A stretch of 64,000 bases of DNA from positions 124,001 to 188,000 of the forward strand of contig JAKAGV010000005.1 of the NCBI GenBank assembly GCA_021815405.1, given 5' to 3'. Within the stretch, counting starts at the first letter, position 1; the number at the start of each line of letters is the position of its first letter. The notes below the pieces were generated by a model. That model saw only the letters and a list, made by a program, of their open reading frames with translations, made no database searches and was not told the origin of the DNA. A program made the position numbers and the translations under genes. Source of the DNA: Bacteroidota bacterium (GTDB taxonomy: Bacteria > Bacteroidota > Ignavibacteria > Ignavibacteriales > Ignavibacteriaceae). Below, piece by piece: positions 34,656 to 41,792 of the stretch.

Positions 34656-35534
34656 TTATTTTCTCATAATATTTTTATTAGTTACCCAGCAACCCTCAAT
34701 TAACCTGGAATTTTTACTTTCATTTATGTATGGAAGATGGTACATGGCTTCGATTGTCTTTAATAAACTATAATGGTTTACCTTCTCTTTGTAGCTTCCG
34801 CCTTTCACCATCTGTCCCAAAAAAATTGTAGGAATATGATTATCTCCCAGGTCATTGTCTTCGTCAAAGGTTAAGATGAAAAGACTATTATGCTTTTTCG
34901 ACCAATCAATATAACTCTTTAAATTTTTCTTTATCCAAAGATCAGACTGCTCGATTCTATCCGGATCTTTCCCGTCATGCATATCATTTTTAACATTTGG
35001 TATAACGAAGGAAACCGTTGGCAGTTTTGTAAAATTTTTCGGAAAAGAGTTAAATGAAAGATTCAATTTCGCAGATATATTGTTCTTTTTTGCACCCTGC
35101 CAGTTTACCCAGGGATTATGTTTTCGTGCATAGTTGCCGGAAACAACACCGTTAAATCCTGCTGATGGCAAATTTTCAGAAAACCCGATAAAAGTAAGAT
35201 GATGTGAAAGCAATTCTGCACCAAGATTCGCGAAAGTAAATGGTAGAATTTTTGGTAAATCATCATTGTCAATACCAAAGTTTGAGCCGGCGAAGATTGC
35301 TAAATAATTCGGCTGGCTCGGATGCATTATTGCATAATAATTAGTGAACAAAGCACAGTGTTTATCTTTTAGCAGCGAGTTTATATAAGGGGCAGCTTTT
35401 GAGCCGATGATTTGGTCATAAGCATGATTTTCAAGTATCAAGACTACAACATGGTCAGGTCGCGGAACCTGGGCAAGTGAAGTCAATGTTAAACAAATGA
35501 ATATAATCTGAATTAAGAAAAGTAATCTCTTCAT
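34656..35534 (-). CDS. Exported phosphoesterase (acid phosphatase-like)
   Basis: An N-terminal signal peptide (about 1-21, ending SLAQ) is followed by a phosphoesterase domain of the AcpA/phospholipase-C type: PDHVVVLILENHAYDQIIGSKAAPYINSLL (metal-binding Glu-Asn), MHPSQPNYLAIFAGSNFG, and LFILTFDEDNDLGDNHIPTIFLG. The protein (292 residues) acts in the periplasm or outside. It may remove phosphate from phosphoesters; specificity is unknown. It follows the spermidine-synthase-like gene by 77 bp and might belong to the same transcript. Confidence 0.88.
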   Translation of the reverse strand: MKRLLFLIQIIFICLTLTSLAQVPRPDHVVVLILENHAYDQIIGSKAAPYINSLLKDKHCALFTNYYAIMHPSQPNYLAIFAGSNFGIDNDDLPKILPFTFANLGAELLSHHLTFIGFSENLPSAGFNGVVSGNYARKHNPWVNWQGAKKNNISAKLNLSFNSFPKNFTKLPTVSFVIPNVKNDMHDGKDPDRIEQSDLWIKKNLKSYIDWSKKHNSLFILTFDEDNDLGDNHIPTIFLGQMVKGGSYKEKVNHYSLLKTIEAMYHLPYINESKNSRLIEGCWVTNKNIMRK

Positions 35535-35611
35535 ACAAACATCTCTAAAATTTTTATTTTATGAATGAAATTACCTAAAATGATTTCACAAACATTTTAC
35601 CCTGCCGCACA

Positions 35612-37771
35612 TCAAATCAATATTAAGGATAAAATTGAAAGCACACTGAGAAAAATTCCTGTAGATATTATTCCGAGAAACGGGATTAGAATAAATGAGG
35701 AAAGTAAAGAACCAAAGCTTCCGCCTAAAACATCCGCAGAATAAAACGGTGCAACGGCTTTTTGCTGGTTGTCTATCCTAAACAAGCTTGCGTATGCAAA
35801 AACTCCTGAAACCAAAACTCCTGCAACCATTAAAAGAAAAGATGTGCCGGCTAAATTTGAAAAGAGACTTGAATTTGTAATTTCATTGAGAAAAAGATTT
35901 ATAAAGACAAGCAGCAATATGAGAATATAACCTGCAGTCCTGAAGGTATTTTTGCTTTTAATCTTTAGGCGGTAAATTTTATCTAGTGCAATTGAGCCTA
36001 AAGACAACCCAGCCATAAAAGCTGTTAATAATATTCCGATGTTCTGGTAAAGAATGCCACTGCGCGATTGATAAAAAAGTATCACCATGGTCTCAAACAC
36101 CATTCCCACAAAGCCAGCAATAAACACAAGAATATACCTTCCGATTCCTACTTTCGATATTCTTATGAAAAAAAATCCAATAGTTAAGAGTAAGGTGGAA
36201 ATCGCGGTGAATTTTCTAATATCAAATTTTTTATTGAAACCGGAAACGTCAATTTGCATTAAGTCCGGAAAAAATTTTGACAGCCACATCGCAGCGGAAT
36301 ATTGATAGCAAACCGGTTTTAAGTCAGTATTCATCTCTGTATGCGAGGTTGAAATTATATGATTTATTTGGAAGAATCTGTCATTTGTAAAAATGTAATT
36401 TATAAATTGAGGTGACACGAGCCTGGCGTTTATTTTTCTTTCTGTGAATCTTTTTGAGAGTATGGTAGGATTTTTTTCTAATTTATTTTTTGAGCAAATT
36501 AAAATGTTGGTTGAGCCCGGAAGGACAATTATATCACGAAAAATATTTTTCATGGTTTTATAGATACTTGTGTTTCTGATAGTAAGCTGCGGTGTCCACA
36601 AATTTTCTGCCGAGCGCAATCTAACAGCAGCAATACCGCTAGGATTCAGTTTAGCTGAACACTGTTCGAAAAATTCTTTTGTAAAAAATCGGTTTGATTG
36701 ACCTGAATTAGGTTCGGCAGCACCTATTAAAATTATATCGTAACTAGGACAATTTTTTAAATATGATCTCGGATCTTCAATAATTAATTTGAAATTCTCT
36801 GACATGAAAGCCAGATGAGTTTCTTCGCTTAGATACTTGTTTGAAATATCAATCAGTTTATTGTTTACTTCAACATAGTCAATTCGTTCAAAATTAAATT
36901 TGGAAATCTCTGATATTGTTCCATCAATTCCGCTGCCGAGAACCAACACGCTTTTAGGAGCCGGGTGCTGAAGCAATGCAAGCTGAACAAATTCTTCCGG
37001 TTCAATGCTTTCATTCTCGAATGAAAGCGCATCATTTTCAAAAACAGATATCTGCTCACCGAGAGATGTAATTGAAACTCTTCCATATGGCGTATCTTTC
37101 GTTTCAACTAAGTTAGGATGATTCAGCTTAGTCATCTTAAAATCTATTGAGGATGAAAAGATAAAAATTAAGATAACGGCAGCAAACAAAATCGCTGCAG
37201 CAAAATTAATGATGAATTTATTTTTTGTGTAAGAATAATAAATAACAGAGAAAGCAAACAATGAGCAAAATAATGCAGATTCAAAATTCTGAAAATCTAA
37301 TCCCAACAACAAAGTGGAAATAAACCCACCGATAACACCTCCGGCACTTTCTATCGCATAAGATTTTACCAAAGTTCTTTTACCGGAAATGTAAATTCTT
37401 GCAGCGTGGCTGAACATTAATCCGAGCAATGCACTAACAGGAAGCACCGAAATAAGAATTCCGCTAAATTGATTTACAAACTGCATGTAAGTCCCAGGTG
37501 ATTCACCGAAGATTATTCTTATTGAGCGGATGAAATAAATATCGATTAGAAAAATTATTCCCCAGGTAAGAAAGTAAATATTCAATGTGTTGACGGAAAT
37601 CTTCTTGCTATGTCTGTCTATTAGAACACCTAATGCAGTTCCAAGCAGCCAAATACCGAGAGAAAGAATATATATTAATTCTATTCCGAAGAAAGCTGTA
37701 TTCAATTCGCGTAGAATAATTACCTGTCCTAGAATCGAAATGAAGCCTATTACGAATAGATAAAGAGCCAT
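35612..37771 (-). CDS. Membrane-embedded spermidine-synthase-like protein
   Basis: About six N-terminal helices (1-200) are followed by a methyltransferase/aminopropyltransferase-like domain (about 220-430) with VLVLGSGIDGTISEISKFNFERIDYVEVNNKLIDISNKYL and DIILIGAAEPNSGQSNRFFTKEFFEQC, and then about five or six helices (505-719). This matches the fused MFS/spermidine-synthase family, whose function is unknown. The nucleotide-binding Gly pattern is kept, while the polyamine-binding Asp/Tyr residues cannot be confirmed by eye. The ATG is 12 bp after the MEMO-AMMECR1 stop, so it is part of the AmmeMemoRadiSam operon. A 719-residue size is usual for this type. Confidence 0.85.
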   Translation of the reverse strand: MALYLFVIGFISILGQVIILRELNTAFFGIELIYILSLGIWLLGTALGVLIDRHSKKISVNTLNIYFLTWGIIFLIDIYFIRSIRIIFGESPGTYMQFVNQFSGILISVLPVSALLGLMFSHAARIYISGKRTLVKSYAIESAGGVIGGFISTLLLGLDFQNFESALFCSLFAFSVIYYSYTKNKFIINFAAAILFAAVILIFIFSSSIDFKMTKLNHPNLVETKDTPYGRVSITSLGEQISVFENDALSFENESIEPEEFVQLALLQHPAPKSVLVLGSGIDGTISEISKFNFERIDYVEVNNKLIDISNKYLSEETHLAFMSENFKLIIEDPRSYLKNCPSYDIILIGAAEPNSGQSNRFFTKEFFEQCSAKLNPSGIAAVRLRSAENLWTPQLTIRNTSIYKTMKNIFRDIIVLPGSTNILICSKNKLEKNPTILSKRFTERKINARLVSPQFINYIFTNDRFFQINHIISTSHTEMNTDLKPVCYQYSAAMWLSKFFPDLMQIDVSGFNKKFDIRKFTAISTLLLTIGFFFIRISKVGIGRYILVFIAGFVGMVFETMVILFYQSRSGILYQNIGILLTAFMAGLSLGSIALDKIYRLKIKSKNTFRTAGYILILLLVFINLFLNEITNSSLFSNLAGTSFLLMVAGVLVSGVFAYASLFRIDNQQKAVAPFYSADVLGGSFGSLLSSFILIPFLGIISTGIFLSVLSILSLILI

Positions 37772-37783
37772 AGCAGCTCCGGC

Positions 37784-39316
37784 TTAATTAAATTGAGACT
37801 CTTCAAACACCTCAGCTTGGAAAGTAAAAAGCTGAGCATCCTGCCAATCGCCGGGAAGCAGCCCGGCTTTTCTGCAGAGGTTCTCAAGTAGTTCTTCGCG
37901 ATTCCAGTTCATCTCTGTAGCAACTTGAGGAAGAAAGACTGCTTGCCTTCCGTTCTTCTTGATAACCACACCGTCTCTTCCCAAAACGATTTCTGTATAA
38001 TTACTAATTGGCTTAGTAGGAGTAAGAACAGAAATTTCTATTTCTACTTTTTGAAATTCATTCCAAGTTAACGGATAGAATCGCTGGTCATTGAATGCAG
38101 ATTGAATAGCCATTGTGCCGATTACTTCGCAGAGCGGCATATCTTCTCTCATGTAACCGATGCAGCCGCGAAGCTCATCATTAATTCTTAAGGTGACAAA
38201 TGCGCCAAGATTTTTTTCAAGCATTGGACTGAAACCGCGGGCAAGTGGTAATGTCTCGGTTTCAAGATATTGTTTAATTGTTTTCCTTGCGAATGAAAGC
38301 ATTGCCTTTTTGTCGGAATCACTCAATTCAAATTTTGAGTCTTCAGGTTCTGTTTCCAACTTATTTTCCACTTTCCATAAAGTTTTTTTAGAAAAGACTA
38401 CCGCTCCATAGCCGACTACTTTCTGCTTATTACCAATTAAACTATTTCCGGAATTAGCATAGCTGGCTACCATGCCTTTTTCAGCTCCTAATTCTTTTAC
38501 TGCTGCAATAACAGCTACAATAGGTCCTTCGCCGCATGCGCAAGTAGCTAAACTTTTTATTCCCTCTTCCATTTGATTTTGAATTACAGACTTCAGTTTT
38601 TGCAAGCTTAGAGAACCGACAGCTTCCAATGTATTTTTATCAATGGTAACTGCATCTTGATAAAATGGATAATGCGATAAATCTGAGCTTGCAACAATTA
38701 AAGCGTTTTTATCTTTTATCAAGCTTGCAAGTGTTTTTCCAAATCGGATGCACATTTCATAATCCGGAGTACCGATTACTATGGGAAGAATTTTTGCTTT
38801 CGGAAATAAGTGTTGAATGAAGGGAAGCTGTACTTCTACCGAATGTTCTTTTTCATGAGCTTCTTCGTTATAAACACAATCGCTGCATGACTCGATTAAA
38901 GATTGGGCAAGTGATGTGTCAATCTCCGAAATTCCTAGCGGAGTCTGAAAACCATTTCCAGGATAGAGTCCTATCTTATTGAAATCGGCAGTTGTGTGGT
39001 TTGTTCCTAATATTATTACTAAATCGTAATTGAAATTCTTTGCCTGGTTATACGCGTCGGCAATTATTTGTCCGGCATAAATATAGCCGGCGTGAGGTGC
39101 TATCAGGGCAATTGGTTTATCTGTCTTAATCGATTCGGCATCGTTCAAGAAGTATTCAATTGATTTGGAAAGCTTCGTAGAATCAGCCGGATAAAATTGT
39201 CCGGCAAATGCAGGCTCACGGATTTTTCCCGGTGAATGTTGAGCGTTGCATTGAACGAATCCAGTCATGCTTAAAGTCATCATAATCATTACCATATAAA
39301 AATATTTTTTAATCAT
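37784..39316 (-). CDS. Exported MEMO-AMMECR1 fusion (AmmeMemoRadiSam system proteins B+A)
   Basis: The N-terminal half (about 32-310) is the MEMO domain, a dioxygenase-like metal-binding fold: FAGQFYPADS, the presumed ligands His75 (PHAGY) and His107 (GTNHT), and Cys261 (ACGEGPI). The C-terminal part (about 330-505) is AMMECR1 with GAFVTLRINDELRGCIGY (371-388) and WDAQLFTF-like WQDAQLFTFQ. The first 25 residues look like a signal peptide, MIKKYFYMVMIMMTLSMTGF followed by VQCNAQ, so the fusion is probably exported. These families always co-occur with a radical SAM enzyme, found 30 bp upstream. The molecular function of the system is not established. Confidence 0.93.
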   Translation of the reverse strand: MIKKYFYMVMIMMTLSMTGFVQCNAQHSPGKIREPAFAGQFYPADSTKLSKSIEYFLNDAESIKTDKPIALIAPHAGYIYAGQIIADAYNQAKNFNYDLVIILGTNHTTADFNKIGLYPGNGFQTPLGISEIDTSLAQSLIESCSDCVYNEEAHEKEHSVEVQLPFIQHLFPKAKILPIVIGTPDYEMCIRFGKTLASLIKDKNALIVASSDLSHYPFYQDAVTIDKNTLEAVGSLSLQKLKSVIQNQMEEGIKSLATCACGEGPIVAVIAAVKELGAEKGMVASYANSGNSLIGNKQKVVGYGAVVFSKKTLWKVENKLETEPEDSKFELSDSDKKAMLSFARKTIKQYLETETLPLARGFSPMLEKNLGAFVTLRINDELRGCIGYMREDMPLCEVIGTMAIQSAFNDQRFYPLTWNEFQKVEIEISVLTPTKPISNYTEIVLGRDGVVIKKNGRQAVFLPQVATEMNWNREELLENLCRKAGLLPGDWQDAQLFTFQAEVFEESQFN

Positions 39317-39345
39317 AATATTTTAATTGATGTTAAATCTAAAAT

Positions 39346-40599
39346 TTAATTCCATACTCCAGAGATTGTACTTTTACAGAAATCGCATTTTCCGTTTGTC
39401 AAATGCTTTTCAAGAATAAAGAAGTTAGAGCGCTTAATAATTTCTTTACCACAATTTGGGCAATAGGTATTGTTGTCTGAATGACCAGGAACATTTCCGA
39501 TATAAACAAAATGAATCCCTTTTTTCAATGCTATTTCTCTAGCTCGTTCAAGCGTTGATATTGGAGTGGGAGAAAGGTTTAGCATTTTATAGTCCGGATG
39601 AAAGCGTGTAAAATGAAGCGGTACATCAAATCCGATTTCGCCTGTAACCCAATCTGCTAAACTGTTAAGCATCTTATTGGAATCATTCAAAGTCGGAACA
39701 ACGAGGTTGACAATTTCCAAATGAATTTTGCTTCTGGAAATTTGTTTTATACTTCTTAATACCGGCTTTAATTCTGCACTACAGACATTCTTGTAAAAAT
39801 CTTCACTAAATCCTTTCAAATCAATCTTGATAGCGCTCAGTGTTTCACACATTTCTTCCAAAGGTTCAGGGTTCATAAATCCGCAGCTTATCATTACGCT
39901 TCTGATATTTTTTTTACGTGCCTGTCTTGCAATGTCGGTTAGGTATTCTGTAAAGACTGTAGGCTCATTGTAAGTAAACGCAATTACCGGAACGAATTCG
40001 GATGAAGCAGCATTAACTATATCATCCGGTTTAATAAATCTTGTCGAAAAGTCTTCTGGTTTTGCTTGAGAGATTTCCCAGTTCTGGCAGAACTTGCATG
40101 AAAGCGGACAACCGGCGGTTGCCAGAGAATAAGCTTGACTGCCTGGTAGGAAATGATAAAATGGTTTTTTCTCTATCGGATCGATGTGGATGGCAGCAGG
40201 ATGCCCATAAACAAGGCTCCGGAGCGTGCCGTTTATGTTCATTCTTGCTCTGCATTTTCCTCGTTCTCCGTTTTTAATAAGGCAGCCTTGTGCACAAAGA
40301 AGGCATTTAATTATTTCTTCACTATGCTGGTACCGGGTTAAAGAATTTGTTTCATCTTTTGTGTGGCAGCTTAAACAGTTGGAATTTTTTACAGATGTTG
40401 AAGTCCAGTATTTAGCGGCAGGAGCTTGTTGAATCAGTGATTCTTCAACAAATGAAGTTAAAAAAGAATTTACTTTGCTGCTGTTAATAGATTTCGCCGC
40501 TGGAAGATTTTTATAAATCAAACTACAGCCGCCGAAGAAAATCCCATATTTTGCGGCTTTCCTTACAAATTCGCGCCTTGAGATATTTTCATTGCTCAT
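39346..40599 (-). CDS. AmmeMemoRadiSam-system radical SAM enzyme with Tat signal and CxxCH
   Basis: This is a radical SAM protein related to pyruvate formate-lyase activating enzymes. The cluster motif CPLSCKFC gives Cys164, Cys168 and Cys171. C-terminal knuckles CPNC (380-383) and CDFC (405-408) fit the zinc-ribbon-like end of the family. Residues 8-12 form SRREF, a twin-arginine motif followed by a hydrophobic stretch (KYGIFFGGCSLIY), so it may be exported folded. A CxxCH motif (Cys75-His79) lies in the N-terminal extension, a possible covalent heme site; further CxxC residues at 99-102, 106 and 116 may hold another cluster. It heads a three-gene operon. A TTGACA-like element lies about 100 bp upstream. 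Confidence 0.93.
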   Translation of the reverse strand: MSNENISRREFVRKAAKYGIFFGGCSLIYKNLPAAKSINSSKVNSFLTSFVEESLIQQAPAAKYWTSTSVKNSNCLSCHTKDETNSLTRYQHSEEIIKCLLCAQGCLIKNGERGKCRARMNINGTLRSLVYGHPAAIHIDPIEKKPFYHFLPGSQAYSLATAGCPLSCKFCQNWEISQAKPEDFSTRFIKPDDIVNAASSEFVPVIAFTYNEPTVFTEYLTDIARQARKKNIRSVMISCGFMNPEPLEEMCETLSAIKIDLKGFSEDFYKNVCSAELKPVLRSIKQISRSKIHLEIVNLVVPTLNDSNKMLNSLADWVTGEIGFDVPLHFTRFHPDYKMLNLSPTPISTLERAREIALKKGIHFVYIGNVPGHSDNNTYCPNCGKEIIKRSNFFILEKHLTNGKCDFCKSTISGVWN

Positions 40600-40919: not shown

Positions 40920-41792
40920 TTAATTTTCAGGTTCGGTATGTACCATTACCTTTGAATTGTTAACCTGTCTTTCAATCTCATCTTCAACCTTATGCGAAAT
41001 TTCGTGAGCTTCGTCGATGGTTAAGTTTTTATCAACGTGAATGTTCAATTCGATGAATTTCTTTGCACCTGATTCCCTAACCCGCAAGTCATGGTAATTT
41101 TTTACTTCCGGGATTTCACTCATTATTTTGTTGATTGATTCCATTACACCTTCAGGCGCTTTATCAGTTAACGCATCAAATGATTTTTTACCGAGCCTAT
41201 AACTGACGAACAAGACAATAAAAGCTACAATGATTGCTGCGATTGTATCTGCATAAAAGAAATCAAGCAGTGCGCCGGTTAAACCGGCAAGCACAACAAC
41301 AGAGCTCCAGATATCAGTTGAGAAGTGGAGTGCATCAGCTTCAAGAGCCTGGCTGTTATATTTTTTTGCAACCCTGTATAATGCCCGCGATCTTGAAAAG
41401 TCAATTATAATAGAAGTAAAGATTACAATAAAACTCCAAACGGTTACTTCAATATGAACATGGTGTTTAACAATCCTGTTTATGGCTTCGTAAATAATCC
41501 ATGCACATGTAATTAATAAAAGAAAAGTCTCGACGAGTGCCGAAAAATTTTCGAACTTTCCATGTCCGAAGTTATGCTCTCTATCTGCAGGATGATCTGA
41601 AATTCTGACTGTAAAGAAAGTCATTGCTGCTGCAATAAGATCCAGACCGGAATGCAGAGCTTCGGAAAGAATTCCGAGGCTGCCTGTCGATATTCCTATA
41701 ACAAGTTTGAAGGATGTAAGAAATATTGCAGCAATTACTGATGAAAGAGCAATTTTTTTCTTTTCTGATACCGCTTTGTGTGTCTTGCTCAT
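40920..41792 (-). CDS. Cation diffusion facilitator (CDF) metal transporter
   Basis: This is a Zn/Fe/Mn-type efflux transporter in the inner membrane. Six helices span about 15-215; metal-site motifs are LHSGLDLIAA (helix 2) and LHFSTDIWSS (helix 5). The sequence RISDHPADREHNFGHGKFENFSALVE is the conserved loop, and the cytoplasmic domain (about 215-290) ends with MVHTEPEN. The length of 290 is standard. Whether it exports zinc, iron or another metal cannot be read from sequence. The small 51-aa gene follows it. Confidence 0.93.
   Translation of the reverse strand: MSKTHKAVSEKKKIALSSVIAAIFLTSFKLVIGISTGSLGILSEALHSGLDLIAAAMTFFTVRISDHPADREHNFGHGKFENFSALVETFLLLITCAWIIYEAINRIVKHHVHIEVTVWSFIVIFTSIIIDFSRSRALYRVAKKYNSQALEADALHFSTDIWSSVVVLAGLTGALLDFFYADTIAAIIVAFIVLFVSYRLGKKSFDALTDKAPEGVMESINKIMSEIPEVKNYHDLRVRESGAKKFIELNIHVDKNLTIDEAHEISHKVEDEIERQVNNSKVMVHTEPEN

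Follow-up and report, generated by a model that had tools for sequence, protein, structure and literature searches.

A putative exported AmmeMemoRadiSam module with a probable heme c site in an Ignavibacteriaceae genome

MEMO and AMMECR1 are conserved up to humans and their function is unsettled. The locus described here lies in a window of 64,000 nucleotides (the whole stretch of DNA that was analysed) from an Ignavibacteriaceae genome and raises the question of whether these proteins and their radical SAM partner may operate outside the cytoplasm; a sequence-only reading had proposed an exported system in which heme might serve as an electron path. A second copy of a metal-enzyme system on the outside, sometimes with heme, would be unexpected, as such radical chemistry has been regarded as cytoplasmic only; to our knowledge no radical SAM enzyme has been demonstrated to be active outside the cytoplasm, and none is known to carry heme c. 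The comparisons reported below point to a genuine variant of a known system that is exported, widespread and coherent and probably carries heme c, and we put a probability of about 0.6 on the reading that the locus is a second, extracytoplasmic AmmeMemoRadiSam module working by the full mechanism proposed here. An exported, fused version with a specific membrane partner would narrow the possible substrates to those of the envelope.

AMMECR1 is listed among Pfam anaerobe markers in the excerpted text of PMC13386939, with values of 3.38 versus 50.66 that we read as percentages of aerobes and anaerobes, and an excerpt of PMC7159879 refers to work published in 2019 on Memo-Ammecr1 systems. In the open papers examined, each represented by part of its text, AmmeMemoRadiSam occurs as a gene label only. 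The 2019 paper is reportedly a JBC article on the PCAD-Memo superfamily. No description of a radical SAM enzyme combined with export, Tat or heme c was found in the open-access literature searched, nor any export or heme experiment on such systems; the JBC article may mention exported forms.

The locus and its protein families

Four minus-strand genes make up the locus in the window, and the features used in this study are as follows.

39346..40599, minus strand: radical SAM enzyme (rSAM) of the AmmeMemoRadiSam rS type, 417 aa (TIGR04337, AF2 model)
40507..40599, minus strand: putative Tat-type signal region, rSAM residues 1-31, SRREFVRK plus an uncharged stretch (from sequence)
40363..40377, minus strand: CLSCH, the putative site of heme c attachment at rSAM residues 75-79 (from sequence)
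40324..40326, minus strand: rSAM H92, seven residues ahead of C99, a candidate for the distal heme ligand (from conservation)
40087..40110, minus strand: C164-x3-C168-x2-C171, radical SAM cluster motif (invariant in 56/56 rows of alignment A4)
37784..39316, minus strand: MEMO-AMMECR1 fusion, predicted to bear a signal, 510 aa (TIGR04336 and TIGR04335)
35612..37771, minus strand: 14-helix membrane protein with a spermidine-synthase-like SAM-fold domain at about residues 215-515, 719 aa (PF01564, AF2 model)
34656..35534, minus strand: phosphoesterase with a signal-like N-terminus, 292 aa (PF04185); a neighbour outside the conserved system

The gaps between successive genes are 29, 12 and 77 bp, and the products score over the cut-offs of their families: the rSAM for TIGR04337 (369.6 bits, cut-off 220), the fusion for TIGR04336 (244 bits, cut-off 26) and TIGR04335 (173.5 bits, cut-off 99), the membrane protein for PF01564 (77.3 bits, cut-off 22.9) and the phosphoesterase for PF04185 (131.2 bits, cut-off 23). 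The rSAM features originally claimed (SRREF at residues 7-11, C75-L-S-C78-H79 and C164/C168/C171) are all present as described, as are the signal-bearing fusion and the membrane protein that follows it. A gene for a cation diffusion facilitator (window 40920-41792; TIGR01297, 241.6 bits) lies 320 bp upstream of the rSAM gene on the same strand, and neither promoter nor terminator patterns exceeded their frequency in shuffled sequence.

Related loci were drawn from two sources. A scan of genome contigs, many of them short, supplied the best 80 loci (L054-L133) of 565 relatives; loci of this kind are found in Ignavibacteria, Calditrichota, Desulfobacterota, Acidobacteriota, Chloroflexota, Omnitrophota and others. 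In a survey of the phylum covering 395 genomes, 86 were over the cut-off with 96 matches listed, and 40 of these (counted by eye) were fetched for their long frames or lower scores, a choice that gives no phylum frequency; six were of the exported type (L014, L015, L017-L020), and the 32 other survey loci comprised 31 signal-less ones and L052, which was unclassed. MEMO was found at 57 and the membrane protein at 49 of the best 80 loci (35 and 33, respectively, of the 49 with at least 5 kb downstream), against eight and none of the 32 other survey loci. The membrane protein, put forward as a spermidine-synthase-like partner, belongs to the system. The phosphoesterase had been included as well: its gene is real and follows at the distance claimed, but it is no conserved partner, since the window protein has no BLASTP match above 60 bits at any of the 80 best or 32 other loci, and we rejected it as a component.

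The TIGR04337 match to the window rSAM covers residues 92-416, and because it starts only at residue 92 the N-terminal part is an addition. This extension is found across many phyla, numerous relatives aligning from residues 1-6 onward, and given these relatives we judge it to be more than chance. Behind it, C164, C168 and C171 and the eight cysteines of two flanking motifs (C99/C102/C106/C116 and C380-C408) are invariant in the 56 rows of alignment A4, which holds 55 of the 80 named rSAMs and that of the window. The CxxxCxxC motif that marks the radical SAM superfamily is present, and [4Fe-4S] binding and SAM cleavage are predicted. In the AF2 model (pLDDT 90.1) the nearest solved fold is pyruvate formate-lyase (PFL)-activating enzyme (3cb8), which is also closest in sequence and shares the radical SAM motif; the window rSAM differs from it in having extra Cys motifs at both ends, an apparent export signal and a heme motif, and in falling below the cut-offs for glycyl radical enzyme activases (54.9 bits against 231.75 for TIGR02493; 64.2 against 131.15 for TIGR02495).

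In the fusion, H75 and H107 are invariant and C261 is kept in at least 90% of the 43 rows of alignment A6 (42 of 47 fusions plus the window). These residues align with H49, H81 and C244, the metal ligands of human MEMO1 (7kq8) given in the excerpted text of PMC11081632, and the window MEMO differs from the human protein in being fused to AMMECR1 and, on its signal, exported. The AMMECR1 motif LRGC[IV]G occurs in 47/47 long fusions. Compared with the known AmmeMemoRadiSam set (amrS/amrB/amrA; TIGR04337, TIGR04336, TIGR04335), the window module has the same three families in adjacent genes, with catalytic and metal residues kept, but it is distinguished by predicted export, by the fusion of MEMO to AMMECR1, by a heme c motif, by its 14-helix SAM-fold membrane partner and by the coexistence of a signal-less set in the same genome.

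Export signals and host machinery

An RR or KR motif followed by an uncharged stretch is present in all 31 rSAMs that carry CxxCH and in most others. The window protein has the twin arginine (SRREFVRK) with a weak hydrophobic stretch (1.07 over 15 residues), which is clearer in many relatives, and its genome encodes TatC (235.7 bits). A script assigned the 80 best loci to the classes Tat_RR (53), Tat_KR (4), hydrophobic (11) and none (12); by eye, L108, L123, L131 and L094 were moved to the Sec type and L090 and L101 to near-Tat, L079 is truncated at the contig boundary, and eight of the 80 are signal-less after these moves. Lys-Arg replaces the twin arginine in the Tat-like motif of L017-L020, L057, L115 and L116, whose genomes have TatC.

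Sec-type N-termini occur at 15 loci (11 by script, four by eye) in Omnitrophota, Elusimicrobiota, Auribacterota and others. TatC is absent from 13 of these 15 genomes (L114 and L117 do have it) versus none of the 54 Tat-type genomes, a difference with a Fisher p of 2.7e-12 that ignores kinship, uses the by-eye reclassifications and comes mostly from metagenome-assembled genomes, which may be incomplete and make any absence of TatC or PF01578 uncertain. The comparison covers 77 rows (70 of the 80 named loci, six survey loci and the window), with eight signal-less rows excluded; among signal-less rSAM genomes, one of eight (L093) lacks TatC. On a quick tree the signal type changes at least four times and two to three independent signal/TatC pairs fall on well-supported branches, and the phylogeny-corrected test is not significant. 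We take these comparisons to indicate that signal type tracks the export machinery of the host, and regard them as the strongest evidence that what is conserved is the outside location and no one route to it.

The fusion proteins carry signals of a different kind. A hydrophobic N-terminus precedes MEMO in 61 of 65 MEMO frames at exported-type loci (threshold 1.9); of the four exceptions, three are broken or lack a start and the fourth belongs to the window, whose value of 1.83 narrowly misses the threshold. The strict lipobox pattern fits 14 of 47 fusions, and some others look lipobox- or peptidase-like by eye. The export signals attributed to both proteins by the earlier reading are supported, and we consider it very likely that the rSAM and MEMO-AMMECR1 are exported.

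Eight of the 80 best loci have a signal-less rSAM by our by-eye count (L093, L096, L103, L105, L106, L113, L119 and L124), and at four of them (L096, L105, L113 and L119) it stands beside a signal-bearing MEMO-AMMECR1. At L113:8992-9966 and L119:233-1207 the rSAM start overlaps, in ATGA fashion, a frame upstream of it whose end is EAKYY-like, the kind of sequence that usually precedes the core within one protein. The N-terminal part may here be a separate gene, through a split or a frameshift.

The heme motif and the membrane partner

The CxxCH motif is present in 31 of 121 rSAM rows (L052 was dropped for want of the anchor motif, and L002, L004, L007 and L009-L013 were excluded as repeats). 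Its two cysteines and histidine are fixed in all 31, with 21 different middle dipeptides, and every one of these proteins has a second histidine, at the position of window H92 in 30 and one place off in L088. A histidine at that position occurs in only two of the 90 rows that lack CxxCH, and five of those 90 do not reach far enough ahead of the core for the position to be assessed. Twenty-seven of the CxxCH rows belong to a 35-row clade (SH-aLRT 99) and the other four are from Chloroflexota, two clades only. Within the 35-row clade, seven Syntrophaceae-type rows (and L079, which is cut) lack both CxxCH and the H92-position histidine and keep RR. On the tree CxxCH changes three times, giving two independent CxxCH/His pairs, which is not significant.

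Three of the four Chloroflexota loci (L084, L086 and L087) encode ResB and CcsA, which form the system II heme c synthetase, directly upstream of their CxxCH rSAM. ResB was assigned by Pfam in L084 and L086 and by BLASTP clustering in L087, CcsA by Pfam in L084 and L087 and by BLASTP in L086; in the fourth locus, L085, the 4 kb upstream contain neither. PF01578 and TatC are both present in 23/23 tested CxxCH genomes, and the window's genome has five PF01578 matches (heme c assembly). PF01578 is missing from three of 42 genomes (L108, L112 and L113), whose locus rSAMs lack CxxCH. The rSAM shares the marks of a c-type cytochrome, CxxCH with a second conserved histidine and assembly genes, axial ligation being putative, and heme c on the rSAM of the CxxCH clades is in our judgement likely. 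Residues 71-90 are of low confidence in the AF2 model, and the heme geometry is not readable from it.

One check proposed with the earlier reading was whether the Tat signal and CxxCH are conserved together. All 31 CxxCH rows are Tat-type, and 90 of the 121 rows lack CxxCH. Heme is a likely fused electron carrier in the CxxCH forms but not a general one, because the motif is confined to those 31 rows. Eight Omnitrophota loci that lack CxxCH encode a DsbD_2 membrane protein (Pfam-confirmed in three) at 1.1 to 3.1 kb from the rSAM start, on its downstream side, which may be an alternative way of bringing electrons out. An FMN-binding carrier before the rSAM was considered and discarded, only L119 having a weak RnfG-like piece (E 8.8e-5). 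Small frames with four CxxCH motifs (L070, 7.8 kb after the rSAM start) and three (L077, 1.6 kb before it) are possible multiheme cytochromes.

The AF2 model of the membrane protein (pLDDT 88.9) reads by eye as seven helices, a soluble domain and seven more helices. Loop limits had been set from hydropathy before the model was available, and the model agrees with them. Over 53 rows the loops hold 877 K/R in 5025 residues on one side against 148 in 2226 on the other, and the denser side places the soluble domain outside in 53/53 rows; by the charge rule, the SAM-fold domain faces outside. Alignment A5 comprises 39 of the 46 membrane proteins over 600 aa and that of the window. Spermidine-synthase-like residues are kept (G279 in 48, E301 in 51, D333 in 51 and R335 in 52 of 53 rows), and a SAM-like nucleoside is the expected ligand of the domain. 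Only 3/53 rows have the first Asp of D-x-x-D-P, which has a catalytic role in spermidine synthase (the window has G350), and aminopropyl transfer is for this reason unlikely. A Foldseek search aimed at the helical part listed 50 matches, all of them aminopropyltransferases aligned over about 260-285 columns. The domain matches solved spermidine synthases, but the protein differs from these and from the fused MFS-spermidine synthase (PF01564, NF037959) in the rarity of that Asp and in its 7+7 helices around an outward domain, and it scores below TIGR00417 (92.9 bits against 249.55) and NF037959 (31.3 against 40). Its profile also matches a METTL13-type methyltransferase (5wcj) weakly (E 1.6e-5); METTL13 has no membrane helices, and methyl transfer is only a possibility. 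Two further observations concern single genomes: a second large membrane protein of the window's genome (G000:C23:603932-604300; L141:400-2766) matches spermidine synthase at 21.9 bits, under the cut-off, and at L084:6119-7246 a single frame that matches nitroreductase and, weakly, is DUF4405/cytochrome-b561-like sits between MEMO-AMMECR1 and the membrane protein.

Proposed mechanism, rival explanations and the second copy

We propose that the rSAM folds with its iron-sulfur cluster or clusters in the cytoplasm and would then leave through Tat, on the strength of signals predicted in silico, or, in Tat-less lineages, by a Sec-type signal. In the window clade and the four Chloroflexota, CxxCH would receive its heme c outside, the second ligand being the His downstream of it, as conservation and the ResB-CcsA gene neighbours suggest. 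The heme, some 20 residues before C99/C102/C106/C116, could pass electrons from a periplasmic donor towards the SAM cluster; elsewhere this might fall to different carriers, for example the DsbD_2 membrane protein near some Omnitrophota loci. SAM would be bound by the outward SAM-fold domain, which may deliver it, take the products or use SAM itself, and the radical would act on a substrate held by MEMO-AMMECR1 at the membrane, with its iron/copper site in MEMO, or on the fusion itself. Speculatively, LRGC[IV]G of AMMECR1 could be the radical target, by analogy with PFL-type activases, which act on partner proteins. Radical chemistry outside the cytoplasm, taken by itself, we rate slightly below an even chance. 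The fuller picture, in which such chemistry proceeds in many phyla, wired by heme or thiols, with SAM supplied through the outward domain and the radical passed to MEMO-AMMECR1, is more tentative still.

Several other explanations share part of this evidence. The proteins might be tethered to the inner membrane and act on its cytoplasmic side, their N-terminal stretches serving as anchors; the modest hydrophobicity of the Tat-type stretches, the eight best-locus rSAMs without any stretch and the cytoplasmic assembly of SAM and clusters would suit this. We find it improbable, given the RR/KR motif retained in most rSAMs, the distribution of TatC, the CcsBA genes beside a CxxCH rSAM, the lipobox- and peptidase-like fusions, and positive N-termini ahead of the hydrophobic stretch, which by eye favour the bulk of the protein outside. 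It is rather unlikely, too, that the chemistry precedes export, the rSAM modifying itself, a cargo or MEMO-AMMECR1 in the cytoplasm so that the exported form is a product or a metal/redox protein. Tat carries folded, cofactor-loaded proteins, and we know of no SAM supply outside the cytoplasm and of no machinery for loading clusters outside after Sec export of an iron-sulfur enzyme; but Sec-type rSAMs exist, the membrane SAM-fold domain faces outward by the charge rule, and the Sec- or lipoprotein-like N-termini of MEMO-AMMECR1 imply a protein unfolded at export.

The remaining alternatives accept export and dispute what is exported. That the CxxCH cysteines and histidine bind zinc or an iron-sulfur cluster is suggested by the other Cys motifs of the rSAM, and a lone CxxCH can arise by chance, but the free variation of the middle dipeptide around fixed C, C and H, the joint presence or loss of CxxCH and the second His, the restriction of CxxCH to exported forms, and the clustering of ResB-CcsA with the rSAM gene in three Chloroflexota make such a site doubtful at best. 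We give very little credence to MEMO as an extracellular dioxygenase of aromatic compounds: the metal triad is kept and the window MEMO matches PF02900 (LigB) just over the cut-off (26.8 bits against 26.3), but its third ligand is a Cys, a trait shared with human MEMO1, in which no dioxygenase activity could be detected according to the excerpt of PMC11081632, and AMMECR1 is an anaerobe marker in that of PMC13386939.

The exported AmmeMemoRadiSam module appears, as a rule, to be an addition to a cytoplasmic one, because a signal-less second copy is found in the window's own genome and in most of those examined. Core homologues that lack both signal and CxxCH, whose existence had been named in advance as evidence against an exported system, do exist, but they mostly form a separate, coexisting paralogous set. 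The window's genome has an rSAM of 343 aa without a signal (L001, 503.3 bits) on another contig and, at L005, adjacent, separate and signal-less AMMECR1 and MEMO genes, over the cut-offs. A signal-less copy is likewise present in 7/7 exported-type genomes (six from the survey and our own), and another copy over the cut-off in 35 of 36 named genomes of other phyla with such loci, and at the named locus itself the rSAM of three of them (L096, L105 and L113) is signal-less. Of 36 further copies from 34 genomes, 34 are signal-less, one (L173) is Tat-type and one (L166) is truncated at a contig edge. The quick tree places the signal-less rSAMs of L016, L039 and L049 inside the exported group or next to it.

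An ABC-transporter ATPase near 15 loci was set aside, its offsets being scattered and its family very common. The window's genome encodes a third MEMO-like protein (G000:C2:69503-70156; L006:1207-2280) with a signal-like N-terminus and a TIGR04336 score of 84.4 bits, whose gene adjoins a frame resembling, by eye, a glycoside hydrolase. A DUF362 protein is encoded about 1 kb upstream of the rSAM at six loci (L089, L092, L095, L110, L111 and L127), identified by Pfam for L110 and L111 and by BLASTP for the remainder; that of L110 is Tat-like by eye.
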